This document shows, one piece after another, positions 8,412-60,160 of a stretch of DNA of 64,000 nucleotides; the stretch's first letter is position 1; each line of letters starts with the position of its first letter. Under the pieces are notes generated by a model. It had not been told where the DNA came from. It worked only from the letters and a program-made list of their open reading frames with translations, and made no database searches. The DNA comes from Astropecten irregularis (Eukaryota > Echinodermata > Asteroidea > Paxillosida > Astropectinidae), in assembly GCA_963971285.1 (NCBI GenBank), contig OZ020257.1, forward strand, positions 14,894,602 to 14,958,601. The letters run 5' to 3'. The translations under genes were made by a program, and so were the position numbers.

Positions 8412-11400
8412 TTAAGGGCAGTTGCTTCGGATTTCATCGAGAGCCTTCTTGAGTTTAGCATCGTTTCTGATGGCAAACGAGTTGGTGCTGAGGGTGACGG
8501 ATCTGGATTTCCCCTTCCCGGACAGAATGGAATCTTCCTGGCCGATGATGATGAAACGATCTTCTCCTGAACGAAATAAAGAAAAAATGGCGGGAAAACT
8601 GTGAGCTAAACAAGTTGACATGAAGGGTGAAAATTTTGTTCTAAAACTGAAGAGAAAGAGGTGATTTGTTTTGTGCACAGCCTATGAGTGTGTAGATTTT
8701 TCTGAACAGGGGCCAATTTCATGGAGCTAACAGTAACAGTCATCTGCGAAAATTCCCAGTCCTATACGGTGCCCCTTTTTAAAAAAGACGGTGAAAACTG
8801 TCCACAGTATTTAAAAATCTTTTTACAGGATTTTTGATCAAAATTGTTTTTGTTCAATTTGGTTTTTTTTTATTGATAAATACAGTACAGCATTTCAGGC
8901 AGAAAAATGTTAACAGCATGTTTCTACCATCACTGTCTTTATACCCTGTAAGTTATAGGTAAATATGTGAGGATTTCTGTTTGGGTATGCTACCAAAGTG
9001 TGATAGTACCTTTAAGACTCAGTATTTGTTAAGTTTATTCTTCTTTTTTGGTTGCTTTCTGACCATTAGTGGTGCATGAACAAATTCACCTGCCTAGTTG
9101 TTAAGAAAAATTGCTTGATGTGCTGTAAAGAGATAACCTAGTCAGGCAGCCACAGAATGCCCATGGAGTGAGGTCGTACAAGTAGGACGCTGCACTTTGG
9201 GGAATAATTATAACAAAAAGGTATGACATGCAATGCTCCTATGTGATACAACATCCAGCCATTTCAACAAGGTACAAAGCAGACCGTCTAGTAGCAAGAA
9301 GTTCATGAAACTTTTTTATTTGCCATTTCTGTCAAATCACTTGATTTCTTTGATCATCCCAAGTTGTTTTTATTTGTGGTAATTGGCCAAGGACAGACCG
9401 AGCTCCAAAAACCCATGCACCACTTGCAACTGGCCACAATCGCATGATCACATCGGCCTGATCTGAGAAAAGTACGTGCAGAAGTACGTTGACATCGCCG
9501 TATAAAAAAATGGCAACCACATTCTAACAAACAAGTTTGACAACTCTGGTCACTTGTGGACAAAAAATCTCCGATAATAAATAGCATTCGCTGAACATTT
9601 TTCCAGTCGTCTTGGTCTACTGTAAGATGAGACAAATTTGAACTTGAGTCTTGGCTTCCTTATGATGTTTCAAAATTTTCTTTCCTGTATAAAAAAACTT
9701 TTTATGGGGAGCTTGCTTTGCAAACTTCACGATGGGGAGACAAGGGTTGGGATTTTATTGTAATTTATGGCAGTTAGCAGGTCATAGGTGGCAAGGATAG
9801 TTCACTGTAGGTAGGTGCCCCTCCAGGGACTAGATAGCTCAAATGGTCGAGCACAGGTATGGCAGTTAATGGGTTATATGGCTTCCGACTGGCACCCTCA
9901 GCAAAGATAGATGACTATATGGAGGACCCATCATAGGGCTGGACAGCTCAGGTGGTAGAGCACTGGTATGGCAGTTAATGGGTTATATGGCTTCTGACTG
10001 ACACCCAGACCAAAGAAGTTGACTAGGGAGGCCCCATCATAGGGCTAGATAGCTCAGGTGGTAGAGCACTGGTATACCGTTCCAGGGGTCTAAATGTCAT
10101 GTTCCTCAGGCCTAAAGCACCTGTCTGAAGATGAGCGAGACTTACCATTAGCTCCAATGGTGCTGCAGGGGCAGGTCTCATCCACGTCCAAGAGGCGTGA
10201 CGGCTGGGAAACTTCCACATTCTGGATCAGGTCTCGTAGCATCCTTACACGGTTGTCCCTGGCCCTCCACTTCAACACCATCACTGCAGATAATACAATA
10301 CCAACAGGGTTATGCAAAAGACCTTTCTATGAGGCACCTGCAAGATAGCCCCTCCTCCTGACCACATCTGTATGCCATCTATCTCCTCTTTGCAGATTCC
10401 CAGCCTCATTGCATGCTTTCCCTGTTTTCCTACACTCCCTTTACCCCTTTGTTTTGATCCTCTCATCAATTTATGTGTATCTTAACTTGTATGTTCTTGT
10501 CCTCTTTTCATTTAGCCTTTGAGAAAGGCATCAAAAGTCCCGACCTCAGTAAAGATACTATCTTACTTTGGTATGGTTGATAGAACAGCTGTGGTCTGTT
10601 CATAATTTGATTTGTCATGGAATAAAAACACACCTGTGAAATGTTCTCATTTGATCATTTGGAACAGTAGAAAACAGTGAAAAACAGTTGCAACCTTGAG
10701 GTCTGGGAGGTGGAAGGGTGGGGGGTGGGTGGGGGTGGGGGTAGACTGAGGTCCATGATCAACCATCATATCAGATTGCAACCCAATGACACCAGCCAAT
10801 GTTTCCATAATCTAATTAACTGTATCCAGGTACGTTGACAACTTGCAACATATCACATCCCAGGGGAAGTAAAAAAAAATGGACATTTTTTAAATTGATT
10901 TGCCACTTCCACGACCCAGAAATGGAAAAAAGGGGAGCGGGATATCTTACCGACCTTGAGAGAGTACAAAGATAGTACAACATAGCCCCCCAACTCATTT
11001 TGATGGGCGCTTCACAGACCACATGTTTTCTATTTATAATACAGAATTTGGCTAGTAAGGACCATGATCCCACAGTTTGAATACTTGTAACTCTGATTGA
11101 ACATTCTCCTGGGTCTCTTCACATGTTTCCCGTATTGGTATCATGACGGACAGGGGCAAACTTTCACGGCGGTGTCTAATTTGCGTCTGTGCATTTGTAC
11201 ACCTGTTAAACTTTATAAATAAATGCACCACTCACAGCTGTTCTTTGGATCATAGTGGAAACCAATTATTTGATTCTTCAATCGGAAAAAAAAATGCAAC
11301 ATCATGACAAGGGTAACAGATTGTACACACAGTTTAGATGATGTCAGACAGACACACTGCCACATATGCTGCCAGCCCAAACCTCGAGCAATGACAAAAT

Positions 11401-12085: not shown

Positions 12086-15000
12086 CTGTGCCATATAAAA
12101 AAGAAATATGTAGCCAAGTTTAATACCGGAATATTCTAGAACATCTCAAAGTTCAATTGTAGCTCGGGGAGCGATATAAACATCTGTTCCTTCAATTTTC
12201 CTCATCAAGTTCACCAGAGTAATCTGGGGTCGATTTCACGAAGTCCTACAATCGATCGTAACTCGAGTTACGAATGATAACCCATCATATCCTACGTAGG
12301 GCTGCAATGCATCATAAGTCCTATGATTGATAGTAAGTTACGATGAGTCGAGAACCTTTACCCTCCACAAGTAATAATAATCTTTTACTGTAACCAAAAC
12401 CAATCCATGGTACCAACAAAATTACGAGGGGGATTTTTTAAAAGTAGATGGCCAAAAACAAAGAAACTGGGAGAAAATGAAAGCTCACAGTATGCATTTG
12501 ATGAACTTCGATATTTCTTTATATGTCAATACAAATGAAGAAAATATGGAAGTCATGAACAGATCAATTACAAATCTGCAGATGTCATAATCTGCATCAG
12601 TAAGAGATTTAGATTGCATCCCAATTCTTTGGCTGAAGCTAAGACTTAGATAGGCACCAATGGCAGTCACCGGCTATTAGTGACTGCAGCCGTTTCCATA
12701 GACATGATAGACTTGTGTATGATTTGTAGACACAGCCAGAGATATGGATCATGGCTTAATTCAAATCAAACCTTGGCCTATTCCACACATCAACCAGCAG
12801 ATGTCTGCTCGTTATTTTCAAACTTGGCAAACTTACGGAGAGAGATCGGATCAACTGGAGGCGGTGGCTGCACTAAGGAGATGCAGGTATGTCCACAGCC
12901 GTTGAAGCAGCATATCTGATCAGCACTCGGGCAGTCAGAATCGGCCGAGCAGTCCTCCACGCAGACACCCAAGTCAGTCACCAAGGGGCACTCGCTGAAG
13001 TTGTTGACTGTTTTAGAGGGAGAGCAACGACAAACATCATGCTTGATAAATAGGTTCTTTAATTTAAATTCATTATTGTGTAATACATGATTGGTAAAGG
13101 TCACAGAGCAGCACTCACACATTATCTGATCCAACATGTATATGAAATGATAACCTGTGAAAAATTTTAGCTCAATCGGACATCCCAGTCACAAGAACAA
13201 AACTGTTTTTAGTATTGGACTAATTTCTGGATAAATACACCATTTCAGGCAGAAATATTTTAATGGTATGTTTCTACCAGCACCATCTTCATATCCTGAA
13301 AGTTGTACGTAAATCTGTGAACATTTCTGTTTGGGTCTGTTACCAATCCTGTACTGTACCTTTAAGGTGCTTGGAATGAAGTAAAGATCAGCCAAGCAAG
13401 AGATAGGAATTAGGATTCACAGTTTTTAAAAGCAAACATTTTTCTGCTTTAACAGCATTTTTGTCAGGAGTAGATAAAGTTGACCTTCTCCAGGTCTTGT
13501 ATTTTCTCAGGAGAGACTCGGTTAAGAGCAGGGATTTGAATTTCTCTCTCTCCAGGGTTCCACGGCGGGAACTTACCGGAAGGATCGTAGGCCGGCATGC
13601 AGGTATTACCGCAGCCATTGGTGCAGCACTTCATGGTGCCATCGCAGGAGAAGTCGTCGCTGCAATCCTGAATGCAGATGCCCAGGGTACCCAGATCAAT
13701 CATGGGGCATACGCCGGGCTTGGGATCTGCCGGGAGGAAGAGAATAAAAGGAAGGAGATTATAAACCTATCATACCTTGTTGGAACCTTGTTGAAGATTG
13801 AAGGAAAGAGGAAGAGAGGACGTCAGAAGAAACAGTGGATTGATAATATCAAAGAGTGGACAGGAATGAGCTTAGTGCAAGCCAAGCGTCTAGCTCAAAA
13901 CAGAGCTGCTTGGAAGAAACAGTGGATTGATAACATCAAAGAGTGGACAGGAATGAGCTTGGCCAAGCGTCTAGCTCACAACAGAGCTGCTTGGAAGAAG
14001 GAGATAAGGAGATGCGTCCAGATGGTAGCCAATCGTCAGTATTGATGGCGGCCAAAGAAGAAGATCTCTATTCTCAAGAAGGATTGGTTGGGCTGCTGAC
14101 TGAACCATGTGCATATCTGGCTCCTTCACACACCTGGATTACCTCACCAAGTTGTATTTTCAACTAGTTTGCAAACTTACCAAACACTAACTTGGTTTGA
14201 CTTTGAAATATTCTTCTACTATACAAATAAAATGGGGATTATTACTAACCTCTGGGCTGGACTGGTTCAACTGGTTCAACTGGTTCCACAGGATCCACCA
14301 AAACAACTGGACCCAACGGTAAAACTGGGTCAACTGGTTTGGGTTCAACTGGATCCACCAATATAACTGGATCAACCAATATAACTGGATCAACTGGTTC
14401 AACTGGTTTGGGTTCAACTGGATCCACCAATATAACTGGATCCACCAATATAACTGGATCCACTGGTTCAACTGGTTTGGGTTCAACTGGATCCACCAAT
14501 ATAACTGGATCCACTGGTTCAACTGGTTTGGGTTCAACTGGATCCACCAATATAACTGGATCCACCAATATAACTGGATCCACTGGTTCAACTGGTTTGG
14601 GTTCAACTGGATCCACCAATATAACTGGATCCACTGGTTCAACTGGTTTGGGTTCAACTGGATCCACCAATATAACTGGATCCACTGGTTCAACTGGTTT
14701 GGGTTCAACTGGATCCACCAATATAACTGGATCCACTGGTTCAACTGGTTTGGGTTCAACTGGATCCACCAATATAACTGGATCCACTGGTACAACTGCA
14801 TCAACAACAGAAGAAAGAAAAACAAAGAAATATTTTTTTTTAAATTCACAATCGAAGTACCAACTGAGTTCAAAGAACTACAAACGGACAATGGCAACTT
14901 AACAACAAGAGTAAATTGTTGATTTCATCTGGATATGAGGCCATTTTCCTCAAAAGAAGAAAGAAACCATCAAAAGCCTGTCACCACTTGAATCTCAACA

Positions 15001-18000
15001 ATACAAAAGAAGGCTTCAGTTAAAATTGTGGGCCAATCAGATTGGAAATCCATAGCTGCAGTGACTGGGGCTCAATATTACAGCAGTCCTTCAACATCCT
15101 GCAAATTAAGACTTGCATGTGAGCAGACTGGGGAGGCCGGGGGTTAAAGGTCAAACAAAACAGACTACAAACTCCTAGTGAATTAAAATGTCGGATATGC
15201 ATTCTGCAAATACATGTACAGCATCCTCCTGGCTTATGGGAACTGTGGGGCAAAAGCTTCAAGCCAATAGGAAAAACAAAGAATGAAAATGAGCAAATGT
15301 TACCATCTATAATTGGTTTCATGCAAGCTTGTCCACATCCATTGGCGCAACATTTATTATCATCGGTACATCCGCTATCATCTTCACATTCCTGGATACA
15401 GATACCAAATCCACCAGCCTCTACCACTGGGCACTGACCAGGCTTAGGAGGGCTGGGTGGGGCTGTAAGGGGCGAGAAAATACAAGCGGCGTAACGAATA
15501 AGAACAAAGCAAATGAAACATATGACAAGAATACTTGCAAATGTGCCACTTTTGGTGTCAATTAAAACATTTAAGGTTTCTTTAAAAAGAGTTTAAGTGA
15601 GCATAGTCATAGAGCTACATATTGACAAATATTCTAAACCTGAGAAAAAAATTGATATGAATCATAGAGTGAAAATGAGCAAATGTTACCATCTATAATT
15701 GGTTTCATGCAAGCTTTTCCACATCCATTGGCACAACATTTATTATCATCAGTACAGCCGCTATCATCTTCACATTCCTGGATACAGATACCAAATCCAC
15801 CAGCCTCTACCACTGGGCACTGACCAGGCTTAGGAGGGCTGGGTGGGGCTGTAAGGGGCGAGAAAATACAAGCAGCGCAACGAATAAGAGCAAAGCAAAC
15901 AAAATATACAACAAGAATACTTCAAAATGTGCCACTTTTACAGTCAATTTTAAAATTTGAGTTTTCTTTAGAAAGAATTTAAGTGAGCATAGCCACAGAG
16001 CTAGCTCCATATTGACCAAAATCCTACTGAAATGAACCTGGTACCTGAAAAAAAATCAACAAGAATGAAAATGAGCAAATGTTACCATCTAAAATTGGTT
16101 TCATGCAAGCTTTTCCACATCCATTGGCGCAACATTTATTATCGTCAGTACAGCCGCTATCATCTTCACATTCCTGGATACAGATACCAAATCCACCAGC
16201 CTCTACCACTGGGCACTGACCAGGCTTAGGAGGGCTGGGTGGGGCTGTAAGGGGCGAGAAAATACAAGCAGCGCAACGTATAAGAGCAAAGCAAACAAAA
16301 CATACGAAAGAAATACTTCAAAATGTGCCACTTTTAGTGTCATATTTTAAATTTGAGCTTTCTTAGAAAGAATTTAAGCAAGCATAGCCATAGAGATTCA
16401 TATAGACAAAAAACCTATTGAAATGAACCTGGTACCTGAAAAAAAATCGACCTGAATCTTATAAAAGTGAAAATGAGCAAATGTTACCATCATCTATAAT
16501 TGGTTTCATGCAAGCTTTTCCACATCCATTGGCGCAACATTTATTATCGTCGGTACAGCCGCTATCATCTTCACATTCCTGGATACAGATACCAAATCCA
16601 CCAGCCTCTACCACTGGGCACTGACCAGGCTTAGGAGGGCTGGGTGGGACTGTAAGGGGCGAGAAAATACAAGCAGCGCAATGAATAAGAGCAAAGCAAA
16701 CAAAATATACAACAGAAATTCTTGCAAATGTGCCACTTTTAGTGTCAATTTCAAAATCTGAGCTTCTTTAGAAAGAATTTAAGTGAGCATAGCCATAGAG
16801 CTCCATATTGACAAAAAAATATTGAAATAACCCTGGTACCTGAGAAAAAATCAACAAGAATGAAAATGAGCAAATGTTACCATCTATAATTGGTTTCATG
16901 CAAGCTTTTCCACATCCATTGGCGCAACATTTATTATCATCGGTACAGCCGCTATCATCTTCACATTCCTGGATACAGATACCAAATCCACCAGCCTCTA
17001 CCACTGGGCACTGACCAGGCTTAGGAGGGCTGGGTGGGGCTGTAAGGGGCGAGAAAATACAAGCAGCGCAACGTATAAGAGCAAAGCAAACAAAACATAC
17101 GAAAGAAATACTTCAAAATGTGCCACTTTTAGTGTCATATTTTAAATTTGAGCTTTCTTAGAAAGATAATATTTAAGCAAGCATAGCCATAGAGCTTCAT
17201 ATAGACAAAAAACCTATTGAAATGAACCTGGTACCTGAAAAAAAATCGACCTGAATCGTATAAAAGTGAAAATGAGCAAATGTTACCATCATCTATAATT
17301 GGTTTCATGCAAGCTTTTCCACATCCATTGGCGCAACATTTATTATCATCGGTACAGTCGCTATCATCTTCACATTCCTGGATACAGATACCAAATCCAC
17401 CAGCCTCTACCACTGGGCACTGACCAGGCTTAGGAGGGCTGGGTGGGGCTGTAAGGGGCGAGAAAATACAAGCAGCGCAACGTATAAGAGCAAAGCAAAC
17501 AAAAAATACGAAAGAATACTAAATGAGCCACTTTTAGTATCAATTTTAAAATCTGAGCTTTCTTAGAAAGAATTTAAGCAAGCATATAGCCACAGAGCTC
17601 AAACCTATTGAAATGAACCTGGTACCTGACAAAAATTGACCCGAATCTTATAAAAGTGAAAATGAGCAAATGTTACCATCATCTATAATTGGTTTCAAGC
17701 AAGCTTTTCCACATCCATTGGCACAACATTTATTATCATCGGTACAGCCGCTATCATCTTCACATTCCTGGATACAGATACCAAATCCACCAGCCTCTAC
17801 CACTGGGCACTGACCAGGCTTAGAAGGGCTGGGTGGGGCTGTAAGGGGCGAGAAAATACAAGCGGCGTAACGAATAAGAGCAAAGCAAACAAAAAATACG
17901 ACAAGAATACTTCAAAATGTGCCACTTTTGGTGTCAATTTTTAAATTTGAGCTTTCTTTAGAAATAATTTAAGTCAGCATATTCATAGAGCTTCATATTG

Positions 18001-51000: not shown

Positions 51001-54000
51001 CACTTTGATTTTTGTCAAAGAAATGCAGATTCATGGGCAAAACTATCAAGAAAGATACAGCAACAGTCATCTGTGAAATTCGCAGTCCCACACAGTGCCC
51101 ACCTTTTGAGAATACAGTAAAAACTGCCCACGGTATTATTATTGTTCACCGTTATTGTTCATCTTCCGAAGATCAAAATTCTTGGCCCATGGCCAATTTT
51201 TGGTCACTTACTTGGCACAAATTTTGGCTTCCACTCGGGTTTCGTTCACCATGATGTAGGCCGGTGCTTGGATGTCAATCTCAAACTTTGGCAGGACTGC
51301 AAAACAAAACCAAGCAGATGAAAAACTATCAAGCTCACAACTTACCCGGTAATCCATGTTTATTTTATTAACCACTACAGTTTACTTCCTATGAAATCCC
51401 CCAATGCAATATCTGATGATCAATTTCCAGTTATCTCTGATACCACTAGTTCTTGTATTTTTTTTCTCCTCTTATTTGCTGTTTGACCTTTAATGTTTTT
51501 TCTTTTGTGCTTCCCCCTTTGTCCGTATCTATCCTCATCTTATTTGTATGTCTCTGAGTCATTTAGCCAATGTTGCCAATGAAATTCTCTGAAATTTTGT
51601 TTTTCCAACAACATGCCAACATACATAACGGTGCCCACCGAGAAGGGATTCGACTCACTCCGCTGACCCAAGCTAGCTCGGTAGCCTATGGCATCTGCAC
51701 TAGTAAGCAGGAGGTCATGGGTTTGAATCCCACCTGAGCCAACGCATGATTTTTCCATGTGTGCTCAAAAGGCACTTAAAGAAGTGCTTATCTACGTCGT
51801 TGAAGGGCAATAAATTGCTTGCATAATTCTATCTCCTTGACAAATAAATCAATAAAAACATGGCAACACTTCAGGGACTTTCTGATGCCCACTGCTTGTA
51901 AAAAGTGGAGCAAATTCTGATGATTAGTAAAGGGAAGAGACCAAAAAATCTCGCATTTGAACCAGCTGGACAGGCTGGAGACACCTGGCAACTTTTCAAT
52001 CACTTAGTCAGGATATGACATCCGGCACTCACCGTATTCGTCCACGGTGAACGTCTGCGTGACATCCTTCCCTTGATGGACAGCCTTGATCTTCCAGTCA
52101 CCCAGCGGAGGGTCAGAGGTCATAGGCATCTCCAGGTCTACGATGCCGCCGTTTTCCTCTGTGTTCACGTCCAGCCACTGGGCCATGCGGATGCCGCTGG
52201 GCGTCTCCACCCAAATTTTGGAAACCTGAAATTTGGGAGCGGAGATGCATAAATGGTATTGCTTTGAAATAGGTCATTCCAACAGGTTAGAGCAAGATTT
52301 GTTTCATACGTTTCTCCCCAGCAGAATTGCCACTAATAGCATCTGAGAAGTTCACCATTTGCTTTCCCATCATGTCAAAATTACCAAAATAACCACAAAC
52401 AGAAGGCTACAAATTAACCAAATGAAATGGTACCGATTGACAAGTTATTGCACATCAATTTTTTTTATTGATTTTCCAAGAATTCATTCCAATAATCTAA
52501 TACATGTAACCAAAATATGCAGTTTATGTCATTCATTCCAATACATAGGCCTATATCACTTGTTTCTATCTTTCAATGCTGTCAGATAATAGTTTTGTAA
52601 CACAAGTTGCACAACTTTGTTGAAATATGAAATAATGTCAACAATTCTTTCTTTTTTCTGAAAAACAATGGAACAAACACCCAAGTGTATGGTTTCCAAA
52701 TGGAATGCGGATAGAAAAAAAACACAAACATCAATGTTCTGTAATGAAATAGCTTTCGGTTTTCAATACAATTTTAAAATAGGACTTCTAGGAAAGCTTT
52801 TGTTTTTACTAAGTACTACCAAAACAAATTTCACAAAAGTTTCTATTCTTTACCGGAGTCAGGTCTGGTCGGAAGTTCTGGTCAATGGTCAGCATGCGGA
52901 ATTTCACTGTGAAACAGAAACAAAAAGACAATGACAACAAAATATGTCAAACTGATGAAACCAAAAACGCTGACGCTATCGAGCGCTGAAAGAAAAAAAA
53001 ACTCAAAATTACGAATGCAATTCCTGATCTTATAATCTGGCCGCAAGAGATTTACGACACGCATCTGCTGATTGTACTAGGTTGGAGCTAATAAGTCTAA
53101 CTCGTAAAATCTGAGCAGGATTTATTGACTCTCTGTGAGACATTTATAGCTGTTTCGATCGTCTGATCTGATTAAAATGAGAGTGCAATAGAAGTCTTAC
53201 TTGATAAACTCACAATATCTACAACTTAATTTTGACACGTACAACTTTGGTAACACACAGTATCTACTTCCTGTAGACTCATGGCGTGATATCCCACAAA
53301 AGTCTAGAAATTTGCCCACAGCCTTTTATTGTTTTCTGTTTCTTTTTTAAGGGAAACCACAGATTAGCCATAAAAGATGATTTTGCAAAATGGATATTGT
53401 CTTTGGTTTGATTTCCCCTGGTGTCAGAAAGCAGAAATATCTAGAGTCTAGACCCAAGGGCAATAAGGCAATTCCTTTGAAGCACCAATGCAACGGCCTG
53501 GCTGGACAAACTTAAACGACTGATCAGATGCACAAAATAATTTTGAAAAGTTTGTACCAAGGCATTGCCTCCATTGTATCCATCAAGTAAACAACTAGGG
53601 CACCAAGGCAATGATCAGGGGCATCAAAAACAGTTTCGTTCCAGGTAGCCTTTGCAAAAATTGAAACCCTTGATCATGTATTACATGCAGGATACATGCC
53701 TTTGACAAGCCAGAATTTCAAACTCTTCCATTTCATTTCACAGATTAATCAGTAATTCAAGCAGCCTTTCAAGTTTCAGAACTTACACATGCACGACAAC
53801 ACATGTAGGCCTATCTGAAAATGCAAAGAGCTTTAGGACCTGCCTCATTATATCAACTACAAACACCAGCCCTGACACAAAATATTCCCAGTGGTTCTCG
53901 GGCTTCACTCGCTGGGTCAAAGGCTAACAAGGTAATATTCCACTGCATATCTCTGATGGGATTGTCCAAGGTTTCCCATTTCCCTCGAGTGGCAATGATG

Positions 54001-57000
54001 GTATTGACGGTTGAACCTGAGCTGGTATGTCTTTAGCGACTGAATTCACTGAAAGTAGACTTTTCCCTTGGGGTACCAGCCTTGCAGACAGATTTCTTTT
54101 TTTCTAGACGTTATTTCTGTCGGGAATCCATAAGAGGAATTTGATTTCAGTCTGCTTGGAGTTAATTTGATTAGGAGCTTGTTTTTTAAAGAATCTCTAG
54201 GATTGGTCAAATATAATTCTTTTCAATTCGAAATTCTAGCAGTGGTGGAAACTGGAAACTAAAAGTTCATGTGTAAGAATGGGATGATGTTACATTGTTA
54301 ATGGGATAAATAATTACCACACCACTGAACTGAGAGTATCTTCACATCAAATTCTGAGAAATGGCATATTAGGTATCAGTCAAAAAGATTTGGGAGGCTA
54401 AGAGTGTAAACGTGGAAATGACAACATTTCCTTTTGTATTGATGTATGTAAGGGGGGATATGGGATTCACCTGAACTTATTAATCATTGTTCCTCATCAT
54501 GTAGTACCAGCATTGTACTTTTGCGGTTTGGTCTCATTTTTTGAAACACGTTTGTCCAAATCAGTGATTTCTCGGCAAATCGAAACTCGACTTTGCCAAC
54601 ATTTGGACACCAAAAGTACTTTTTAAGGTCACACAACCAAGAGGTGATTCTGGGGGCATCCAGTTCCGGTCTGTTTCTAATAATGGACACGTGTATTGCA
54701 AGCCATCCACCCAATTAAAAAAGTACATTGGCCCAGCCGATCAAAAGGGTTTAAAGTAAAAATGCACATGTTGCAAAGATGCAAGTGACTAGATTCTATA
54801 TCATTTTAATATAAGATTTTGAGGTTTATATTGTGGGATGATAATGAAACTAGACTGCTGGATTCAGACTGGGCCTGTACGTGGCTTGTATGAGAGAACC
54901 CTGTTCTCCCTGAGAGCTAGATGCCTTCTAATGGGCTGGCAGAAGCCTTCCAGAGGGCCACATTACCTTGCATCCCTGAGGTCAAATCTTTTGAGGAGTT
55001 TCTTACTGAAGAAGTGAACTCACTATTTCCACAAAAGATCAATGCATTGCGGCATGGGCACAACAAAATAAACTTCACTGAAGCAACAGAGGCAATTGTC
55101 ATTGCCTTGAAGCTCCTGGAAATACATGTTTTCCAGACAAAACCTCTACAGAAGTAACCTATTTTTTTTTATGAACATATACTTTACCATTTACTATACT
55201 ACCTGAATACAACACAACAATTCTAAATATTCTAACTTCTATGAACTTTTATATGACCAACATTCGCAAAGTACGTGGATACATACCGGTCTGTCCTGGT
55301 TTATAGATTGACTTGTCTGTCTGAATGAAGCTTTCAAAGTTGTTTCCTCGAATCCAAACCTTCTTGCTGTCTGTAAAGGTCAGTTCGGGGTCGTATTCAG
55401 AACGACCTTCGACCACAAAGACGGCTTTCTTCTGTTCTTCAGCCATGGCTGGAACCTAAGTTACAAAACAAAAAAGAGAGAAAAATTGAACATTATCAAT
55501 TGAATCTTCACGAAATCAACCCAAACTACTAGTACTTTGCATAAAAACTACTAAAACAAAGCATCCCCTCCGCCATAAAATAAAAATCAAGATAGAAATA
55601 AACCAGCTTAGTACCAATTATAAGCAATATCATACATCACATGAAATTCTGGCTGGTAACCTGTGTTTGCTCAGAACCTTTGTGGTGCTTATCAACCTTC
55701 ATGAAACTGGTCCCTTTGGCCAATTTCATAGAGCTGCTTAAGCACCAAAAAAAAAATCTGTTTGCCAGCCCAAACTCCTTGTGAATGTAAGCTTGGTAAA
55801 AATAGCCCAATAAAAGTCAAAAACGGTAAACATCACATGAAAATTTGGTTGGACATTCATCCTGTTTGATCAAGGGAGACTTTTCATGCTTTAAAAGCAA
55901 TTTTTGTTCTTAAGCAGCTCTATGAAATTGGCCCCTGTACACTTAAGACATGTACTCTGTAAAGTCTGTCAACCAGATTGTTATTAAACTTATTTCCAAC
56001 AATTTGAAATACATTACAATACCAACCTCCAGACTGAGACAAGCAAAATGGAACTCCATGAAGTACGGAGGTAAGGATGCCAAGATGTCCCGAGACTCTG
56101 AATCCTCTCGGAGGCTGACTGTCACGGTGATGGGACCGGTCATATTCAGCAGGCGGATGCAGAAGGTCTCTGAAGTGCCGGCCGTCATGGCCTTTGGGGC
56201 CATGATGAGGTAGCCCATGTCAAACCTGTTGGTGGAAATATGAAAGTCAATTACAACACATGTGCTCAATCCATCTTGCCCGTTTAAAATGCCAAGGTTT
56301 TCGGCAAATTATGCGTGGATATACATGTAGTATAGTTCATCTTGATGCACGAATTTCTCACGACTAAATTTAATGGTCTTATAGGCCCACCACCTGATTT
56401 CACAGGATTTAAAATGTTTTTGCACAGTAACCTCCAGCTTTGAAATGATCTGGTTGCCATATATATTATTGTTGCCCAAGGGCCCAATATGATTACGAAC
56501 AATGTTTTAGTTCTGACTTTCTCTTATAAAATTGTACAATGCCTTTGCCATTGCTTGCCCTGAAAAAGTAGTGTCTTAAATTCAAATCTAAATGTTGGAT
56601 ATTTGTATACGTGTGTGAACAGTTCAGCAGTTATTTTAATTCAATGCAAAAACAGCTCATTTCATTGAGCTGCTACTGATGAATAAATTCATCTGATGAA
56701 CTTTATGAGCTCAAATTCATAATACATGGGAAAGGATAGACCGATGCTCTAACAGGTGAGACCAATTTCATGAAGCTGCTAAGCACACACAAATTGCTAA
56801 GCACAAAATGTTTTGCTCAATAAAACTAACTACCATAAAAAAAAAATCCATTTGATATTCATAGTCAGCGAATAACAGCCAAAGAACAACCCTAAGCGAC
56901 ACAAAGCAAATTGTTGTGCTGTGTAGGGCCACGAAATTGGCCCCAGTCCCTCAAACCCATCAAAAGACTCACACTGCACATTATATGGAGAACATGTTTT

Positions 57001-60000: not shown

Positions 60001-60160
60001 GGCACATGGCTCAGTATGCTTACCCAGCAGGCTCGGGTGATGTTTCCACCGGGCCATTGGTGGGTTCTGGCGGCGGCAGCAGTTCTTCTTGCCCGAAGCC
60101 CACGGAGCAGCAGCCCAACAACAGTGCCAGCACCGCAGCTCCACAACAAGTACCCCTCAT
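8412..60160 (-). CDS. Giant thioester (A2M/C3/CD109-like) protein with EGF, Kunitz, WAP and NTR tail, 68 exons
   Basis: Seen: 68 exons joined on GT-AG introns with matching phases sum to 10,602 nt (3,533 residues plus TAA) without an internal stop. Domain order: signal peptide (1-23), macroglobulin domains (about 46-780), furin-type RRKR (730-733), MG7/CUB (about 779-1050), thioester domain with GCGEQN (1070-1075) and His1186, MG8 (about 1414-1546), proline-rich linker (1546-1627), Cys-rich and four EGF modules (1627-1878), three Kunitz (1894-2114), 19 WAP (2114-3123), Val/Pro repeat (3123-3305), two WAP (3305-3412), NTR (3412-3533). Known: thioester proteins bind targets covalently or trap proteases; Kunitz and WAP domains often inhibit serine proteases; C3/C4/C5 end in an NTR-type C345C domain. 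Inferred: a secreted humoral defence or protease-control protein. Closest vertebrate relatives are probably CPAMD8/CD109/C3, but orthology is unproven. Typical A2M-family proteins are 1,400-1,900 residues, so this is about twice as long. The exon joins are hand-made and not supported by transcript data. Confidence 0.9.
8725..9013. repeat. R3 element, partial (intron 67)
   Basis: Shares 'cagtaacagtcatctg', 'cagcatttcaggcagaaa' and 'gtttctaccatcac' with the complete copy at 11529-11902. The right end 'tagtacctttaa' is kept and the left end is missing. Confidence 0.65.
9825..10080 (+). repeat. Tandemly repeated tRNA-like SINE heads (intron 67)
   Basis: Three heads start at about 9825, 9935 and 10041, each with 'agggct.ga.agctca..tggt.gagcac' and then 'ggtatggcagttaatgggtt'. 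The period is about 108 bp. The third is cut short close to exon 67. Confidence 0.7.
11529..11902. repeat. R3 MITE with TTAAAGGTA ends (intron 66)
   Basis: A 374-bp element. Its left 22 bp (ttaaaggtaatttcatactttg region) is inverted at the right end (caaagtatgatactacctttaa region), with about 19 of 22 matching. The TTAA at each outer edge could be a target-site duplication, as used by piggyBac-type elements. Related pieces occur at 8725-9013, 13190-13364, 41795-42120 and 50985-51180. Confidence 0.7.
12226..12350. repeat. Partial R2 palindromic MITE (intron 65)
   Basis: Begins ggggtcgatttcacgaagtc and continues through 'cctacgtagg' to 'gttacgatgagtcg', where the terminal arm is lost. Confidence 0.7.
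12837..13007 (-). CDS. Exon 65: WAP-type domain 21 plus linker
   Basis: [22 protein letters not shown], then [12 protein letters not shown], followed by a proline-rich linker ([12 protein letters not shown]) leading to the NTR domain. Phase 1-1 with donor C|GTAAGT. Confidence 0.92.
13190..13364. repeat. R3 element, right half (intron 64)
   Basis: Contains 'ccatttcaggcagaaat', 'gtttctaccagcaccatc' and ends 'tgtacctttaa', matching the 3' half of the 11529 copy. Confidence 0.6.
13577..13726 (-). CDS. Exon 64: WAP-type domain 20
   Basis: [21 protein letters not shown], then [17 protein letters not shown]. Eight Cys; the GICIQDC string shows kinship with the array (GICIQEC). Phase 1-1. Confidence 0.92.
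13735..14045 (+). mobile_element. LINE reverse-transcriptase C-terminal fragment with internal duplication
   Basis: The plus frame encodes [20 protein letters not shown], then [18 protein letters not shown]. The [10 protein letters not shown] block is repeated once (about 81-87 nt unit) before a stop at 14043-14045. This '[16 protein letters not shown]...A.RLA..R..W' string is typical of the extreme C-terminus of non-LTR endonuclease/reverse-transcriptase proteins. No catalytic domain remains. The fragment sits in the intron between the minisatellite exon and WAP 20. Confidence 0.7.
14250..14795 (-). CDS. Exon 63: Val/Pro-rich coding minisatellite
   Basis: The 546-nt exon encodes about 182 residues built from a 17-residue unit ([17 protein letters not shown], 51 nt), sometimes lengthened by 18 nt (PVILVD). 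Eight copies of the KPVEP core are visible. Because the period is a multiple of three, all frames of this strand and the reverse are open, which makes large but spurious ORFs. Both ends splice in phase 1 (acceptor TGCAG, donor G|GTTAGT). It likely forms an extended stalk between the WAP array and the last two WAP domains. It has no Cys. Confidence 0.8.
15304..20196 (-). CDS. Exons 50-62: tandem array of 13 near-identical WAP exons
   Basis: Exons in transcript order: 20038-20196, 19649-19807, 19260-19418, 18870-19028, 18480-18638, 18085-18243, 17677-17838, 17287-17448, 16881-17039, 16488-16649, 16086-16244, 15690-15848, 15304-15462. Ten are 159 nt and three are 162 nt (an extra Asp codon at the donor). 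Each encodes one WAP domain ([40 protein letters not shown]). Unit period is 386-408 bp, and introns are nearly as similar as exons. Differences are few: SDC for SGC in 17287-17448, GQAC for GKAC in 15304-15462, and CLKP for CMKP in 17677-17838. All are phase 1-1, so copy number can change without breaking the frame. Confidence 0.93.
20288..20770. repeat. Three copies of a 161-bp tandem repeat made from a broken WAP unit
   Basis: Units start at 20288, 20449 and 20610 (period 161). Each contains the acceptor side of the WAP array unit ('gctgtaaggggcgagaaaat' and 'agggctgggtagggct') but only about 20 bp of WAP exon sequence before unrelated sequence. They lie directly beside the first array exon, so they look like a truncated unit that was then amplified separately. 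Confidence 0.8.
20856..21002 (-). CDS. Exon 49: WAP-type domain 6
   Basis: [21 protein letters not shown], then [18 protein letters not shown]. Eight Cys are kept, but the usual NGCG after the Cys pair is changed to SMEC. It is the last WAP exon before the near-identical array. Phase 1-1. Confidence 0.88.
21102..21300. repeat. R1 fold-back element copy (intron 48)
   Basis: Starts 'ggggccaatttcatagagct' and keeps the internal 'ccttgatcaaacaggatta' and 'attgtttgctgagcataaca' motifs. The right end is truncated against an R4 element. Confidence 0.75.
21309..21514. repeat. R4 GC-rich fold-back element (intron 48)
   Basis: Left arm 'aggctcaggctcgggctcc' is inverted on the right as 'ggagcccgagtctgagcct', with an AT-rich centre ('gaaaatataggttgcgg', 'ccaaaagcctctattttgat'). 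Two relatives lie at 32240-32412 and 33757-33975. Confidence 0.75.
21541..21702 (-). CDS. Exon 48: WAP-type domain 5
   Basis: [19 protein letters not shown], then [17 protein letters not shown]. Its PPRPGQCP opening matches the 'PPKPGQCP' start of the array units. Phase 1-1. An R4 fold-back repeat ends about 30 bp from this exon. Confidence 0.9.
21783..21924. repeat. R2 palindromic MITE (intron 47)
   Basis: Begins tgggatcgatttcacgaag and ends ttggtgaaatcaacccc, orientation reversed relative to 36942. It lies just upstream of the WAP 5 exon. Confidence 0.75.
22122..24803. mobile_element. 2.7 kb TA-flanked terminal-inverted-repeat element (non-autonomous)
   Basis: gcagtcagcgcgcagccc at 22122-22139 is perfectly inverted at 24786-24803, and each is bounded outside by TA (22120-22121, 24804-24805). 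The TA target duplication suggests Tc1/mariner-type or related mobilisation. The AT-rich interior has imperfect direct repeats (about 22860-22960 and 23397-23500) and no transposase-like open frame. It accounts for most of the 3.4 kb intron between WAP 4 and WAP 5. Confidence 0.65.
25147..25296 (-). CDS. Exon 47: WAP-type domain 4
   Basis: [22 protein letters not shown], then [12 protein letters not shown]: eight Cys with WAP spacing. Donor C|GTAAGT, phase 1-1. The intron that follows in transcript order is the longest of the tail (3.4 kb) because of the TA-flanked element at 22122-24803. Confidence 0.9.
25728..25886 (-). CDS. Exon 46: WAP-type domain 3
   Basis: [19 protein letters not shown], then [17 protein letters not shown] gives the eight-Cys WAP pattern. 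C-terminal MPAYNPI resembles exon 64 (MPAYDPS), so the two are probably close relatives flanking the array. Phase 1-1. Confidence 0.9.
25925..26225. repeat. Minisatellite, about 22-bp unit (intron 45)
   Basis: About 13 imperfect copies of 'gtgttgaaatttcggctggtaacc'-type text. It is noncoding, although it opens a false repetitive frame on the minus strand. Confidence 0.85.
26358..26534 (-). CDS. Exon 45: WAP-type domain 2
   Basis: Eight Cys ([33 protein letters not shown]). The spacing between the second and third Cys is longer than in standard WAP, so this is a divergent member. A short linker ([10 protein letters not shown]) follows. Phase 1-1. Confidence 0.8.
26988..27143 (-). CDS. Exon 44: WAP-type four-disulfide-core domain 1
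   Basis: Eight Cys in WAP spacing: [17 protein letters not shown], then [17 protein letters not shown]. It is more diverged from the array than the others. Phase 1-1. Confidence 0.85.
27456..27662 (-). CDS. Exon 43: Kunitz domain 3 plus linker
   Basis: Residues 2045-2114. [27 protein letters not shown] and NCTAMC complete the six Cys. P1 is Glu (AGLC-E-A), an uncommon choice that may mean a glutamyl-type target or loss of inhibition. N-C-T is an N-glycosylation sequon. Phase 1-1. Confidence 0.92.
27929..28138 (-). CDS. Exon 42: Kunitz domain 2 plus linker
   Basis: Residues 1975-2045. The BPTI pattern is [11 protein letters not shown], then [16 protein letters not shown], then ACEEAC. P1 is Arg (TGKC-R-A), as in trypsin inhibitors. 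The tail [15 protein letters not shown] is a linker. Phase 1-1. Confidence 0.92.
28676..28795 (-). mobile_element. Possible SINE head, reverse orientation (intron 41)
   Basis: Read on the minus strand, it has a B-box-like 'aggttcgaatccagccatgg' and 'ggcgtgtcgtactcaagatc'. It resembles tRNA-related SINEs seen widely in invertebrate introns. Confidence 0.4.
28831..29073 (-). CDS. Exon 41: Kunitz domain 1 plus linker
   Basis: Residues 1894-1975. Six Cys follow the BPTI pattern ([11 protein letters not shown], then [16 protein letters not shown], then DCEASC). By alignment to BPTI (TGPC-K), the P1 residue after Cys14 is Leu, which suggests a chymotrypsin- or elastase-like specificity. A 30-residue Pro/Val linker follows the domain. 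Confidence 0.92.
29174..29415. repeat. R1 fold-back element copy (intron 40)
   Basis: Begins 'ggggccaatttcatagagca' and is inverted internally relative to the 21102 copy ('gctcagcaaacaatgg', then 'tgtttgatcaaggaag'). This fits a palindromic element that can insert either way. Confidence 0.75.
29474..29521 (-). CDS. Exon 40: 16-residue linker
   Basis: The 48-nt exon encodes [15 protein letters not shown] between the last EGF and the first Kunitz domain. Its VDP/VP content resembles the Val/Pro repeat of exon 63. It has good splice sites (CCAG acceptor, G|GTGAGA donor) and phase 1-1, so it could be skipped without changing the frame. Confidence 0.7.
29887..30030 (-). CDS. Exon 39: calcium-binding EGF domain 4
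   Basis: Residues 1830-1878. [17 protein letters not shown] and [14 protein letters not shown] show a six-Cys EGF with the calcium motif. It is separated from EGF 1-3 by the short Cys-rich exon 38. Donor is A|GTAAGA, phase 1. Confidence 0.88.
30117..30625. repeat. Tandem duplication flanking exon 38
   Basis: About 130 bp at 30117-30250 ('gatgctgcctcgcaaggta' and 'ctgtttccaatctcttgtta') recurs at 30493-30625, about 376 bp away, with exon 38 between them. The intron beside exon 38 also matches that beside exon 34 (30250-30480 against 32570-32820). Confidence 0.75.
30373..30444 (-). CDS. Exon 38: short Cys-rich module, copy of exon 34
   Basis: The 72-nt exon encodes [18 protein letters not shown], near-identical to exon 34 ([18 protein letters not shown]). 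The flanking introns also match for more than 150 nt, so this is a segmental duplication of exon plus introns. Both junctions are phase 1. Confidence 0.78.
30640..31130. repeat. Degenerate minisatellite 'gatgccagatactagtg' (intron 37)
   Basis: Roughly 25 loose copies of a 14-18 bp unit containing 'agatactag' and 'tggatgcc'. Divergent, so an older array. It lies between Cys-rich exon 38 and EGF 3. Confidence 0.8.
31168..31302 (-). CDS. Exon 37: calcium-binding EGF domain 3
   Basis: Residues 1761-1806. It begins [18 protein letters not shown] and includes [14 protein letters not shown], six Cys in all. It is a phase 1-1 exon with acceptor CCACAG and donor G|GTAAGA. Confidence 0.88.
31623..31760 (-). 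CDS. Exon 36: calcium-binding EGF domain 2
   Basis: Residues 1715-1761. [17 protein letters not shown] opens a six-Cys EGF with the D-x-N-E calcium motif and GSYDC in the middle. It is a phase 1-1 exon, directly following EGF 1. Confidence 0.88.
31992..32126 (-). CDS. Exon 35: calcium-binding EGF domain 1
   Basis: Residues 1670-1715. It starts DLDEC and has six Cys with a final CxxGY-type turn (CGSGYKM). The D-x-D-E motif at the start fits a calcium-binding EGF. It is a single phase 1-1 exon. Confidence 0.88.
32240..32412. repeat. R4 fold-back element (intron 34)
   Basis: Arms 'gaggctcaggctccgtctc' and 'ggagccgtagactgagcctg', centre 'gaaaatataggttgtgg' and 'gccaaaagcctctattt'. Confidence 0.7.
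32711..33008 (-). CDS. Exons 33-34: two short Cys-rich modules
   Basis: Exon 33 (32952-33008) encodes [17 protein letters not shown]. Exon 34 (32711-32782) encodes a 24-residue module, [18 protein letters not shown], with four Cys in a C-x4-C-x5-C-x4-C pattern. Exon 34 is a near copy of exon 38 (30373-30444). Family not identified; it resembles small Cys-rich repeats preceding EGF domains. Both exons are flanked by phase 1 introns. Confidence 0.75.
33131..33215 (+). mobile_element. tRNA-derived SINE (intron 32)
   Basis: Carries a tRNA-like A box (gtagctcagttggtaagagc) and B box (ggttcaaatccc) 46 bp apart with no cloverleaf acceptor stem, followed by 'gctccagtgaattt'. This is the head of a tRNA-derived SINE; the tail 'cttggttcacatttcaatg' recurs in other copies. 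Confidence 0.75.
33254..33496 (-). CDS. Exon 32: proline-rich linker
   Basis: Residues 1546-1627. It is rich in Pro, Glu and Gly (short stretches such as [16 protein letters not shown]) and has one Cys near its start (KLPCPVEP). No known fold is visible. It joins the A2M core to the modular tail and is probably an extended flexible spacer. Both ends are phase 1. Confidence 0.8.
33757..33975. repeat. R4 fold-back element (intron 31)
   Basis: Arms 'tcctcggctctgactgaggc' and 'ggacccggagcctgagccgg', same centre as the other two copies. Confidence 0.7.
34149..35501 (-). CDS. Exons 29-31: MG8 (A2M receptor-binding-type) domain
   Basis: Exons: 35377-35501, 34719-34887 and 34149-34251 (residues 1414-1546). 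Landmarks are [16 protein letters not shown] (family 'M..ivdv.l.SGF.p'), [23 protein letters not shown], and [10 protein letters not shown] (family 'a.v.VYDYYep'), which ends the A2M core. From this donor onward every splice junction in the gene is phase 1. Confidence 0.92.
35074..35325. repeat. R1 fold-back element copy (intron 29)
   Basis: Nearly complete copy with both ends: 'ggggccaatttcatagagct' on the left and 'gcagctgtatgaaaatggcccc' on the right. Confidence 0.8.
36116..37529 (-). CDS. Exons 25-28: end of thioester domain and second CUB half
   Basis: Exons: 37455-37529, 37149-37308, 36659-36867 and 36116-36340 (residues 1191-1413). They show [58 protein letters not shown] and [13 protein letters not shown], the ordered helical motifs of the thioester domain. 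Exon 27 ends in a weaker donor (CAG|GTGTTT). The join is fixed by phase and by the family string 'GGFsSTQDTVvaLqALa'. Confidence 0.92.
36942..37080. repeat. R2 palindromic MITE (intron 26)
   Basis: Begins ggagttgatttcaccaaac, has 'cctacgtagg' in the middle and ends cctcgtgaaatcgaccc. It fills about half of this short intron. Confidence 0.78.
37815..37918 (+). mobile_element. tRNA-derived SINE (intron 24)
   Basis: A box 'tggctcagttggtagagcg', B box 'ggttcgaaatcc', then 'gctccagtcaatttttcttt'. Same family as the copy at 33131. Confidence 0.78.
37992..38255 (-). CDS. Exon 24: thioester domain with catalytic His
   Basis: Residues 1103-1190. It includes [21 protein letters not shown] (family 'GSTWLTAFV...F..A') and [15 protein letters not shown]. 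His1186 aligns with human C3 His1126, lying 115 residues after the thioester Cys (116 in C3). A2M has Asn at this place. Known from C3/C4: His here favours fast ester bond formation with hydroxyl groups, so carbohydrate surfaces are likely targets. Confidence 0.9.
38677..38831 (-). CDS. Exon 23: thioester site GCGEQNM
   Basis: Residues 1051-1102. The motif [13 protein letters not shown] contains the thioester Cys1071 and Gln1074 (codons within 38758-38775), followed by [11 protein letters not shown], the conserved first helices of the thioester domain. An intact CGEQ predicts an internal thioester able to bind nucleophiles on target surfaces after activation, as in C3, A2M, CD109 and insect TEP1. 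Confidence 0.95.
39016..39896 (-). CDS. Exons 20-22: CUB segment preceding the thioester domain
   Basis: Exons: 39790-39896, 39455-39506 and 39016-39102 (residues 969-1051). The segment includes [15 protein letters not shown], matching the family 'D.v.R.L.V.PEG' motif before the thioester domain. All three junctions are in phase. Exon 21 is only 52 nt. Confidence 0.85.
40270..42279 (-). CDS. Exons 16-19: end of MG6 and MG7
   Basis: Exons: 42198-42279, 41447-41642, 40823-41054 and 40270-40411 (residues 752-969). Hallmarks in order: [16 protein letters not shown], then [10 protein letters not shown] (family 'YFPETWLWDL'), then [14 protein letters not shown] (family 'vPDtITtW.a.a.C'), and [18 protein letters not shown] of MG7. 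These are among the most conserved strings of the superfamily, so placement is secure. Confidence 0.92.
41795..42120. repeat. R3-related repeat (intron 16)
   Basis: Contains 'catttcaggcagaaatg', 'tttctaccattaccgtc' and 'atttctgttttggta' of the R3 family, preceded by a segment also found near 10590-10690 ('gatttgtcatggaataaaa'). Confidence 0.55.
42358..42598. repeat. R1 fold-back element copy (intron 15)
   Basis: Starts 'ggggccaatttcatagagct' and ends 'gtaaaattggctcc'. The central motifs are in the inverted order compared with the 35074 copy. Confidence 0.78.
42632..42802 (-). CDS. Exon 15: bait-region position with RRKR processing site
   Basis: Residues 695-751. The exon holds [13 protein letters not shown] followed by RRKR (730-733) and SIIYSPY, a consensus furin site. 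In C3/C4/C5 the chain-processing site is followed by a six-Cys anaphylatoxin domain. Here no such domain follows: only Cys717 (before the site) and Cys768 (in exon 16) fall in the region. Inferred: a two-chain mature protein lacking a C3a-like fragment. Confidence 0.85.
43338..45925 (-). CDS. Exons 11-14: MG5, linker and MG6
   Basis: Exons: 45692-45925, 44888-45062, 44094-44266 and 43338-43487 (residues 451-694). Exon 12 begins with an MG5-like strand ([11 protein letters not shown]) and then carries an acidic, apparently low-order segment ([15 protein letters not shown]). Exon 13 has the MG6 motif [19 protein letters not shown], very like the 'LLVYYI.EDGEVV.DS' of the family. Exon 14 has [12 protein letters not shown], corresponding to the '.AVDKSV.LL' motif that precedes the bait or anaphylatoxin position. 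Confidence 0.88.
46110..46450. repeat. Minisatellite 'gcagtctgctagaggtt' (intron 10)
   Basis: About 17 copies of an 18-21 bp unit such as 'ggttgcagcagtctgctaga'. Noncoding; it produces a false plus-strand frame with repeated Cys/Ser. Confidence 0.85.
46500..51296 (-). CDS. Exons 6-10: macroglobulin domains MG3-MG4
   Basis: Exons: 51212-51296, 49168-49273, 47595-47721, 46963-47072 and 46500-46670 (residues 251-450). The conserved MG3 opening [15 protein letters not shown] and the [10 protein letters not shown] strand are clear (A2M family 'VLPKFEV...YTYGKPV.G'). MG4 includes [20 protein letters not shown], matching the family 'F.PG.P..G' pattern. All joins are GT-AG with consistent phases. 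Confidence 0.9.
47722..49167. other. Intron 7 of the thioester-protein gene
   Basis: 1.4 kb. Holds a poly-C run near 48140 and an R2 palindrome at 48920-49066. No coding signal. Confidence 0.45.
48920..49066. repeat. R2 palindromic MITE (intron 7)
   Basis: Begins ggggccgatttcacc and ends ctttgtgaaatcaacc, with the same palindromic arms as the 49968 copy. Confidence 0.75.
49968..50115. repeat. R2 palindromic MITE (intron 6)
   Basis: It runs from ggggtcgatttcacc to tgaaatcgcccc, with inverted halves (atcgtaacttgctatcaatc against gttacgatcgatcg) and a central 'cctacgtagg' palindrome. The whole 148 bp could fold back on itself. Confidence 0.8.
50985..51180. repeat. R3 element, left half (intron 6)
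   Basis: Starts 'ttaaaaggtaatttcacact' and includes 'cagtcatctgtgaaat' and 'ggttcatgggc'-like text ('gattcatgggcaaaac'). It ends about 30 bp from exon 6, so it may overlap the branch/donor side of this intron. Confidence 0.6.
51655..51790 (+). mobile_element. tRNA-like SINE, second family (intron 5)
   Basis: Contains an A-box-like 'tagctcggtagcctatggc' and a B box 'gggtttgaatccca', followed by 'cacctgagcc'. The body differs from the 33131 family. I read it as a SINE rather than a tRNA gene because no acceptor stem pairs. Confidence 0.5.
52033..56225 (-). CDS. Exons 2-5: macroglobulin domains MG1-MG2
   Basis: Exons: 56027-56225, 55287-55455, 52854-52906 and 52033-52225 (residues 46-251). MG1 begins [10 protein letters not shown], the usual 'YL..AP' opening of A2M-family proteins. 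The superfamily signature [14 protein letters not shown] followed by VKFRMLTID spans the exon 3/4 junction, and MG2 continues to [12 protein letters not shown]. Phases run 2-0-1-0-1. Introns between them include an R1 repeat copy and otherwise no coding signal. Confidence 0.9.
52907..55286. other. Intron 3 of the thioester-protein gene
   Basis: 2.4 kb between the MG2 exons. No repeat family or coding signal recognised. Confidence 0.45.
55716..55937. repeat. R1 fold-back element copy (intron 2)
   Basis: Left end 'ggccaatttcatagagctgc' and right end 'gcagctctatgaaattggcc' are near-perfect inverted repeats, the clearest definition of the family termini. Confidence 0.82.
56226..60023. other. Intron 1 of the thioester-protein gene
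   Basis: 3.8 kb with no exon recognised on either strand. Holds divergent R1-type copies (56758-56945, 58030-58310) and otherwise single-copy AT-rich sequence. First introns often carry regulatory sites, but none is identified here. Confidence 0.5.
56758..56945. repeat. Divergent R1 copy (intron 1)
   Basis: Has 'gaccaatttcatgaagctgc' at the left and 'gggccacgaaattggcccc' at the right with a changed interior. It is a sub-family related to the copy at 63129-63383. Confidence 0.65.
60024..60160 (-). CDS. Exon 1: signal peptide and N-terminus
   Basis: The exon starts ATG AGG GGT and encodes MRGTCC, then a hydrophobic core ([16 protein letters not shown]) with likely cleavage after Gly23 before QEE. 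A short Glu/Pro-rich stretch follows. The donor is GG|GTAAGC, phase 2, and it joins exon 2 to give A-G-F-D-M-G. This is the only in-frame Met with a secretion signal upstream of the MG1 exon, which decides the start. The protein is therefore expected to be secreted. Confidence 0.85.

Follow-up and report, generated by a model that had tools for sequence, protein, structure and literature searches.

Proteins of the alpha-2-macroglobulin (A2M) family are usually regarded as free or membrane-bound traps. A locus of the sea star Astropecten irregularis raises the question of whether one gene can join an A2M-type thioester body to a long tail of EGF, Kunitz and WAP modules, and of what such a molecule would do. 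The locus lies in a 64,000-nucleotide stretch of DNA (assembly GCA_963971285.1, contig OZ020257.1, positions 14,894,602 to 14,958,601 of the forward strand), here called the window, for which an original prediction had proposed one continuous, phase-consistent gene at 8412..60160.

A homology-free, splice-aware exon-chain search with unconstrained ends returned exactly these limits, placing the gene on the minus strand, a point left unstated in the original prediction, with its start ATG at 60160 and its stop at 8412. The chain of 65 exons scored 703, as compared with 41 for the plus strand of the window and 3.6 to 13.9 for eight first-order Markov shuffles. The search used dynamic programming with generic splice weights, and its codon table was built on seed peptides of this same gene, so that the score of 703 is partly circular. 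Minus-strand open reading frames (ORFs) of the window hold WAP, Kunitz, EGF and A2M pieces, and by-eye inspection of the longer plus-strand ORFs spotted no such domain. After comparison with relatives, the refined predicted model has 68 exons, the number originally proposed, and 3,548 residues rather than the 3,533 first given; all 67 of its introns are GT-AG. Its exon boundaries are predictions from genomic DNA, and since several splice sites score weakly (-2.1 for the acceptor at 36867 and 0.3 for the donors of 13 exons in the WAP array described below), individual boundaries may move; those of exons 26, 47 and 65 were set by hand. A strong-homology-bonus model (76 exons, 4,402 residues) was rejected because its exons extended into introns, and an additional 11-residue exon at 51694-51659 was discarded as spurious. 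The predicted product runs from a signal peptide through an A2M body with a GCGEQNM thioester and a proline-rich linker to four EGF, three Kunitz and 19 WAP domains, a proline-rich repeat, two further WAP domains and an NTR-like end, with a modular tail of ~1,970 residues holding 28 EGF, Kunitz and WAP modules.

The joint between body and tail falls at intron 31, and it is here that two neighbouring genes might be suspected, the first an A2M gene running to exon 31, the second an EGF-Kunitz-WAP-NTR gene beginning at exon 32. The intron phases switch at exactly this point: phases 0, 1 and 2 occur 17, 9 and 4 times among introns 1-30, whereas all 37 of introns 31-67 are in phase 1, the usual sign of exon-shuffled modules. 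We nevertheless rejected the two-gene model, which we consider barely credible, on the evidence of joint-spanning relatives and of intron 31 itself. A search with the tail region (best 120 of the 196 proteins passing) returned isoforms X1 (P0121, 3,394 residues) and X3 (P0122, 3,243 residues) of Asterias rubens LOC117296122, together with a protein of 2,850 residues, P0123. When P0121 was compared with the window by tblastn, 55 pieces were kept, running from 56.2 kb to 8.4 kb in the order of P0121 save within repeated domains (EGF 3/4, Kunitz 1/2 and the WAP array); exons 1, 34, 38, 40, 49, 63 and 66 gave no separate piece at the threshold applied. By blastp, residues 9-3132 of the model are 58% identical to residues 7-3214 of P0121, and residues 14-2612 are 62% identical to residues 12-2692 of P0123. 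The A. rubens protein thus matches over its length. P0123 crosses the joint with a coding length of ~8,550 bases on a contig of 10,452 bases; dozens of introns would not fit, and the contig should therefore be a spliced transcript. Database proteins of A. rubens, urchins, crinoids and a brittle star also run past the joint, most of them being gene predictions. Finally, intron 31 is only 652 bp long and contains neither AATAAA nor ATTAAA, and the exon chain stays in phase across it. On these grounds body and tail are predicted to be one gene and one molecule, in agreement with what was first proposed.

We then considered the class of the body; the features described from here on lie on the minus strand unless otherwise stated. 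Exon 1 (60024..60160), found in both the free search and the final model, carries the start codon and an N-terminus that by eye resembles a signal peptide. Exons 2-31 (34149..56225) encode the A2M body with MG domains, bait region, A2M domain, thioester domain (TED) and receptor-binding domain, as assigned by Pfam and by tblastn with P0121. A hidden Markov model search of the translated product, a check suggested along with the original prediction, found the A2M, EGF_CA, Kunitz and WAP families. Within the body, TED_complement (7e-89), A2M (4e-28), A2M_BRD (3e-27), MG3 (2e-19), A2M_recep (2e-17), MG2 (5e-17) and MG4 (1e-7) scored above the cut-off, and MG1 and SVA fell short of it; the domain set of the A2M family is thus present, with MG1 sub-threshold. 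Against PDB entries, the TED matched A2M (6e-75), A2ML1 (2e-73) and CD109 (6e-64) much better than TEP1 (7e-43) or C3 (7e-34), and no anaphylatoxin family was matched in Pfam at E up to 1. The body is therefore of the A2M/A2ML1/CD109 type and not of the C3 type. Membership of complement C3/C4/C5 was rejected on the TED comparison, and the earlier description as a complement-like thioester protein keeps its thioester while "complement-like" becomes a loose label.

The thioester motif is intact. GCGEQNM is encoded by exon 23 (38677..38831) in the final model, and GCGEQ is found in all 41 rows of an alignment of relatives. Exon 24 (37992..38255) encodes a further part of the TED in which PDB alignments and the 41-row alignment place a His (KLCHKAM) at the catalytic position. 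The solved structures of CD109 and A2ML1, which share this domain, likewise have His here, whereas A2M has Asn; to our knowledge none of the three has such a modular tail. His occupies the position in 26 of the 41 rows, including all eight long-tailed ones, and Asn in both vertebrate rows (Xenopus A2M and an alligator A2ML1-like protein). It is established for C3 and C4B that His at this position speeds reaction with hydroxyls. With a thioester and a His at the C3-type catalytic position in place, covalent attachment through the thioester is plausible. Exons 12-13 (44094..45062), which adjoin the Pfam A2M_BRD stretch, encode a variable segment around the putative bait region, with several Arg residues and lower identity to P0121. 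In exon 15 (42632..42802), the alignment of relatives revealed an RRKR-S basic site at which furin-type cleavage into two chains is possible; RRKR or RKKR stands at the equivalent position in all eight long-tailed rows and in several others of the 41-row alignment.

The tail begins with a proline-rich linker in exon 32 (33254..33496 in the final model), the start of which matches P0121. Exon 33 (32952..33008) encodes a linker motif following the receptor-binding domain that is common to long-tailed echinoderm relatives and was found in eight of 247 proteins (the window protein, two A. rubens isoforms, P0123, both crinoids and both urchins); it occurs twice in each urchin, and the brittle star is without it. 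Exons 34 (32711..32782) and 38 (30373..30444) encode two copies of a short cysteine module in the final model, the first with a similar stretch in P0121 as judged by eye. Four calcium-binding EGF domains follow from exons 35, 36, 37 and 39 (29887..32126; four Pfam EGF_CA stretches) and three Kunitz domains from exons 41-43 (27456..29073; Pfam 1e-52, three stretches). Pfam recognised WAP in all ten copies submitted (6 + 2 + 2, out of 21). A scan of all three reading frames of the minus strand for domain patterns gave three Kunitz and 21 WAP cores, every one within model exons, and no thyroglobulin type-1 (Tg1) core. The module counts originally given, 21 WAP, three Kunitz and four EGF, are thereby borne out. 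The tail search also listed P0125 (Ptychodera, 2,068 residues) and P0127 (Asterias rubens, 2,215 residues), whose Pfam matches are WAP alone or WAP with one other family and from which WAP modules might have come.

The Kunitz domains look standard in sequence: they have the six-cysteine spacing and a P1 residue after the second cysteine, and the second domain matches solved Kunitz inhibitors in the PDB. P1 is Leu, Arg and Glu in the window protein, Arg, Arg and Gly in P0121, Lys, Arg, Arg and Gly in P0123, and Arg and Leu in both crinoids. The WAP domains were compared through their C2-C3 spacing, which is 8 in SLPI and 3 in both anosmin and nawaprin; it is 3 in 19 of the 21 copies, 6 in WAP6 and 8 in WAP2 only. 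A WAP of the array matched nawaprin (9e-6) and anosmin (3e-5) best in the PDB, SLPI weakly (1.5e-4) and elafin at 0.03. Of the roughly two dozen inhibitor modules originally envisaged, inhibitor function is thus credible chiefly for the Kunitz domains, and the SLPI loop spacing occurs in a single WAP.

Regarding the arrangement of the WAP domains, exons 44-49 (20856..27143; Pfam and comparison with A. rubens) encode the diverged WAPs 1-6, exons 50-62 (15304..20196) form a ~390-bp tandem array of 13 near-identical WAP exons detected by TRF, and exons 64-65 (12837..13726; Pfam) encode WAPs 20 and 21. By position, WAPs 1-5 correspond best to WAPs 1-5 of A. rubens, and WAPs 20-21 find their best match in its WAPs 16-17. 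The array exons have a mean DNA identity of 98.6%; over 78 pairs, their codon differences sum to 117 synonymous and 48 non-synonymous ones. Because the 13 array WAPs are far more alike mutually (mean 99% identity) than any is to an A. rubens WAP (<=77%), the array would have been amplified or homogenised separately. Exon 63 (14250..14795), a proline-rich repeat of 182 residues flanked by phase-1 introns, was absent from the first dynamic-program models and was placed on the basis of splice sites and phase. It lies between the WAP array and the last two WAPs, a place at which P0121 carries a proline-rich repeat of its own. A minisatellite with a 161-bp unit (20179-20805) lies at the upstream edge of the array.

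Exons 66-68 (8412..12085) encode the C-terminal domain and the stop codon. Aligned with six other A2M C-termini, this piece has four invariant cysteines at 19-28% identity, and Pfam NTR (PF01759) is matched by three of the seven aligned C-termini, the window piece not being among them. A profile of 12 echinoderm-type C-termini, including the window protein and P0123, matched a profile of eight amphioxus, mollusc and annelid C-termini in hhalign with 98.4% probability (E 6e-15); searching the PDB with the NTR alignment produced matches at chance level only. On the strength of the profile match, the cysteine alignment and the Pfam matches in three of seven C-termini we call the domain NTR-like, which preserves the predicted NTR end in this weaker form.

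What might such a protein do? We lean, by a little, towards a secreted A2M-type covalent protease trap with its own tethering and partly inhibitory tail. After secretion, cleavage at RRKR-S would divide the protein into linked chains. Cleavage of the bait region by a protease would then collapse the body and expose the thioester. The exposed bond could form a covalent link either with that protease or with a surface or matrix molecule close by, and the catalytic-position His would favour rapid coupling to hydroxyl groups. A long multivalent stalk, made up of the EGF, WAP, proline-rich and NTR parts, may hold the trap in extracellular matrix or a secretion, while the Kunitz domains, with Leu, Arg and Glu at P1, may block serine proteases directly, the outcome being a tethered, two-mode device for protease control. 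Echinoderm A2M relatives have been reported in adhesive footprints and skeleton in passages of the papers cited below, which would fit a protective matrix role.

The mechanism draws on domain knowledge, and several observations weigh against this tethered trap. Twenty of the 21 WAPs lack the SLPI loop spacing, although spacing by itself is no proof against inhibition. The variation of Kunitz P1 among species, including one Gly in A. rubens, makes a fixed target unlikely. The 122-residue C-terminal piece matches no Pfam family, NTR included. Furthermore, the passages on footprint, adhesive and skeleton A2M proteins name other proteins, possibly paralogues, as Sfp9 is.

We weighed the tethered trap against three other functions. 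The protein might be mainly a structural or adhesive matrix protein whose thioester cross-links it into secretions such as tube-foot footprint, skeleton or mucus, with the tail as a sticky, flexible scaffold and inhibition secondary. This we regard as unlikely but worth serious attention: the A2M-like paralogue Sfp9 is a footprint protein and Sfp8 has WAP repeats, as passages of PMC9382459 describe, and echinoderm skeleton proteomes contain A2M-like proteins according to parts of PMC5460417 and PMC4336488. The WAP loops are mostly not of the SLPI type, and 13 recently amplified WAPs together with proline-rich repeats resemble structural repeats. However, the bait region, thioester and receptor-binding domain are all retained, and the sea star and crinoid Kunitz domains include ones with Arg, Lys or Leu at P1. 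A complement-like opsonin, whose thioester would bind microbes while its tail recruits cells or blocks microbial proteases, seems rather improbable to us. The His at the C3-type catalytic position, the basic site of the two-chain type and the NTR-like C-terminus all agree with it, and C3-C5 have a C-terminal NTR. Yet the sequence is nearest to A2M, A2ML1 and CD109 with C3 far weaker, no anaphylatoxin family was matched, and the Pfam A2M bait region domain is present.

We see only a slight chance that the tail is cut off after secretion and released as WAP and Kunitz peptides, serving as a reserve of antimicrobials or inhibitors. The numerous WAP repeats and their proline-rich spacers would suit such a release, and titles cited in PMC9382459 speak of crustins and single-WAP proteins as antimicrobial; the NTR-like end and the linker motif common to echinoderm relatives suit one molecule instead.

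A search over body residues with the 3,548-residue query covered candidates of ~1,950-6,200 residues. Scoring was confined to the 2,362 candidates with most words in common with the query, and 18 proteins were returned, among them further long-tailed relatives in Lytechinus (LOC446192, 3,625 residues), S. purpuratus (LOC757285, 3,554), Amphiura (2,982), Antedon (3,324) and Anneissia (2,854). Long-tailed relatives thus occur in sea stars, sea urchins, a brittle star and crinoids, and the architecture is not unique but belongs to an uncharacterized echinoderm group, with which the window protein shares the A2M body, linker module, EGF/WAP tail and NTR-like end. Database entries call these relatives uncharacterized or give them generic names. 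We found no published description of the long-tailed protein in the literature searched, which excluded preprints and most subscription journals. According to the original prediction, no well-described protein with this scale and order was known. Patiria and Acanthaster yielded no long-tailed relative among the matches listed, but the protein searches list the best 120 matches or score a fraction of the candidates, so that little can be concluded from absence.

A2M body identity is 70% to A. rubens and 75-79% of body columns to P0123, values that point to a sea star outside Asteriidae. A quick maximum-likelihood tree (41 rows, 1,424 columns, SH-aLRT support; P0044, P0246 and P0070 left out) placed the window protein as sister to the pair P0121 and P0123 (support 100), and this trio as sister to the two long urchin proteins and Diadema P0011 (98). 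The crinoid pair is the first branch of a 20-row clade (100) whose rows, P0015, P0123 and the window protein aside, come from named echinoderms. The eight long-tailed rows need four changes on this tree, and four are forced by starred branches, which counts against one simple origin of long tails. Holding the long-tailed rows and P0011 together (nine rows) cost 29 log units (approximately unbiased test, p-AU 0.068), and the same constraint without Amphiura (eight rows) cost 21 log units (p-AU 0.127), values that neither establish nor reject a single clade. Tail loss in paralogues would also fit the pattern.

Module content differs from class to class in pattern maps, whose counts are rough. 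A. rubens reads thioester (TE)-EGF-Kunitz-WAP with Tg1 interspersed among the WAPs, crinoids read TE-EGF-Kunitz-WAP-antistasin-Tg1-EGF-WAP, and urchins read TE-EGF-WAP with TIL-like stretches and no Kunitz pattern. In Amphiura filiformis P0243, WAP and Tg1 patterns were placed by eye ahead of the A2M body, and the Pfam accessions listed after it are presumably von Willebrand C, frizzled-like, EGF and FN3 types; this entry is perhaps a fused gene model. We hold it possible, though with some doubt, that echinoderms have kept since before the crinoid split a self-anchoring protease trap, a covalent A2M body permanently fused to a matrix stalk and to a second, reversible set of inhibitors. Phase-1 exon shuffling and tandem amplification would have remodelled its tail class by class, retuning one A2M gene to local proteases and matrices. 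An echinoderm form with 28 EGF, Kunitz and WAP modules would show that an A2M trap can be built into matrix, and it provides a natural model for inhibitor scaffolds that are attached covalently. It is also a clear case of exon shuffling (37 consecutive phase-1 introns) with class-by-class turnover of modules.

The closest known likeness is A. rubens LOC117296122, which shares the body, linker module, four EGF, three Kunitz, WAP run, proline-rich repeat, two WAP and NTR-like end in identical order. Its X1 isoform differs in having 17 WAPs as compared with 21 and three Tg1 patterns among them, and the central WAPs differ more between the two species than within either. The long urchin (LOC757285/LOC446192) and crinoid proteins (P0242, P0241, P0194 and P0177) share the body, a CPxGKxF-type module, EGF, WAP and the NTR-like end; the urchin proteins differ by having no Kunitz pattern, five WAPs and TIL-like and thyroglobulin modules, and the crinoid ones by having two Kunitz, 4-6 WAPs and antistasin- and thyroglobulin-like patterns. 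P0015 (1,708 residues) and the amphioxus A2M-like proteins P0016 and P0018 share the A2M body and an NTR-type C-terminus. P0015 has a single WAP between the two, and the pattern maps of P0015 and P0016 differ in being without EGF, Kunitz or a WAP array.

Among better-known proteins, CPAMD8 is also an A2M-family member with an added inhibitor-type domain, its additions being Kazal and farnesoic acid methyltransferase domains as described in part of PMC9363628. Neither is among the Pfam matches of the window protein, which is thus distinct from CPAMD8. WFIKKN/GASP proteins likewise combine WAP, Kunitz and NTR within one secreted protein, and we know of none with an A2M body. They also carry follistatin/Kazal and Ig modules, according to PMC3427181. 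The window protein, with its A2M body and no Pfam match to Ig or Kazal, falls outside this set. Papilin combines a thrombospondin type-1 cassette with Kunitz domains; no thrombospondin family was matched by Pfam in the window protein, and the papilin rows checked cover 13-51% of the tail query.

Passages of PMC9382459 describe Sfp9 as an A2M-like footprint protein of A. rubens (1,562 residues, chromosome 10) and Sfp8 as bearing WAP repeats; on our tree Sfp9 (row P0023) is a paralogue. An A2M-like protein is likewise reported from sea urchin adhesive in part of PMC10057474, and A2M-like proteins from sea star and brittle star skeleton, along with a separate "WAP domains" entry for Patiria, in parts of PMC5460417 and PMC4336488. 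According to PMC9156758, A2ML1 relies on thioester coupling of the protease. A review states, in the part cited, that echinoderms are without alpha-2-macroglobulin (PMC10381214), which the A2M domain set found here and in other echinoderm proteins contradicts.

The window also contains several minor features. Two plus-strand tRNA-like matches lie in introns, at 33138-33211 (tRNA-Thr GGT, by ARAGORN and Rfam) and at 37827-37899 (Rfam only), and both are possibly tRNA-derived short interspersed nuclear elements. Further minisatellites occur at 30731-30986 (17-bp unit), 25926-26155 (25 bp) and 46162-46445 (20 bp). Lastly, a plus-strand ORF of 212 residues with repeated sequence and no Pfam match (13407-14042) resembles what we take to be a fragment of a long interspersed nuclear element.

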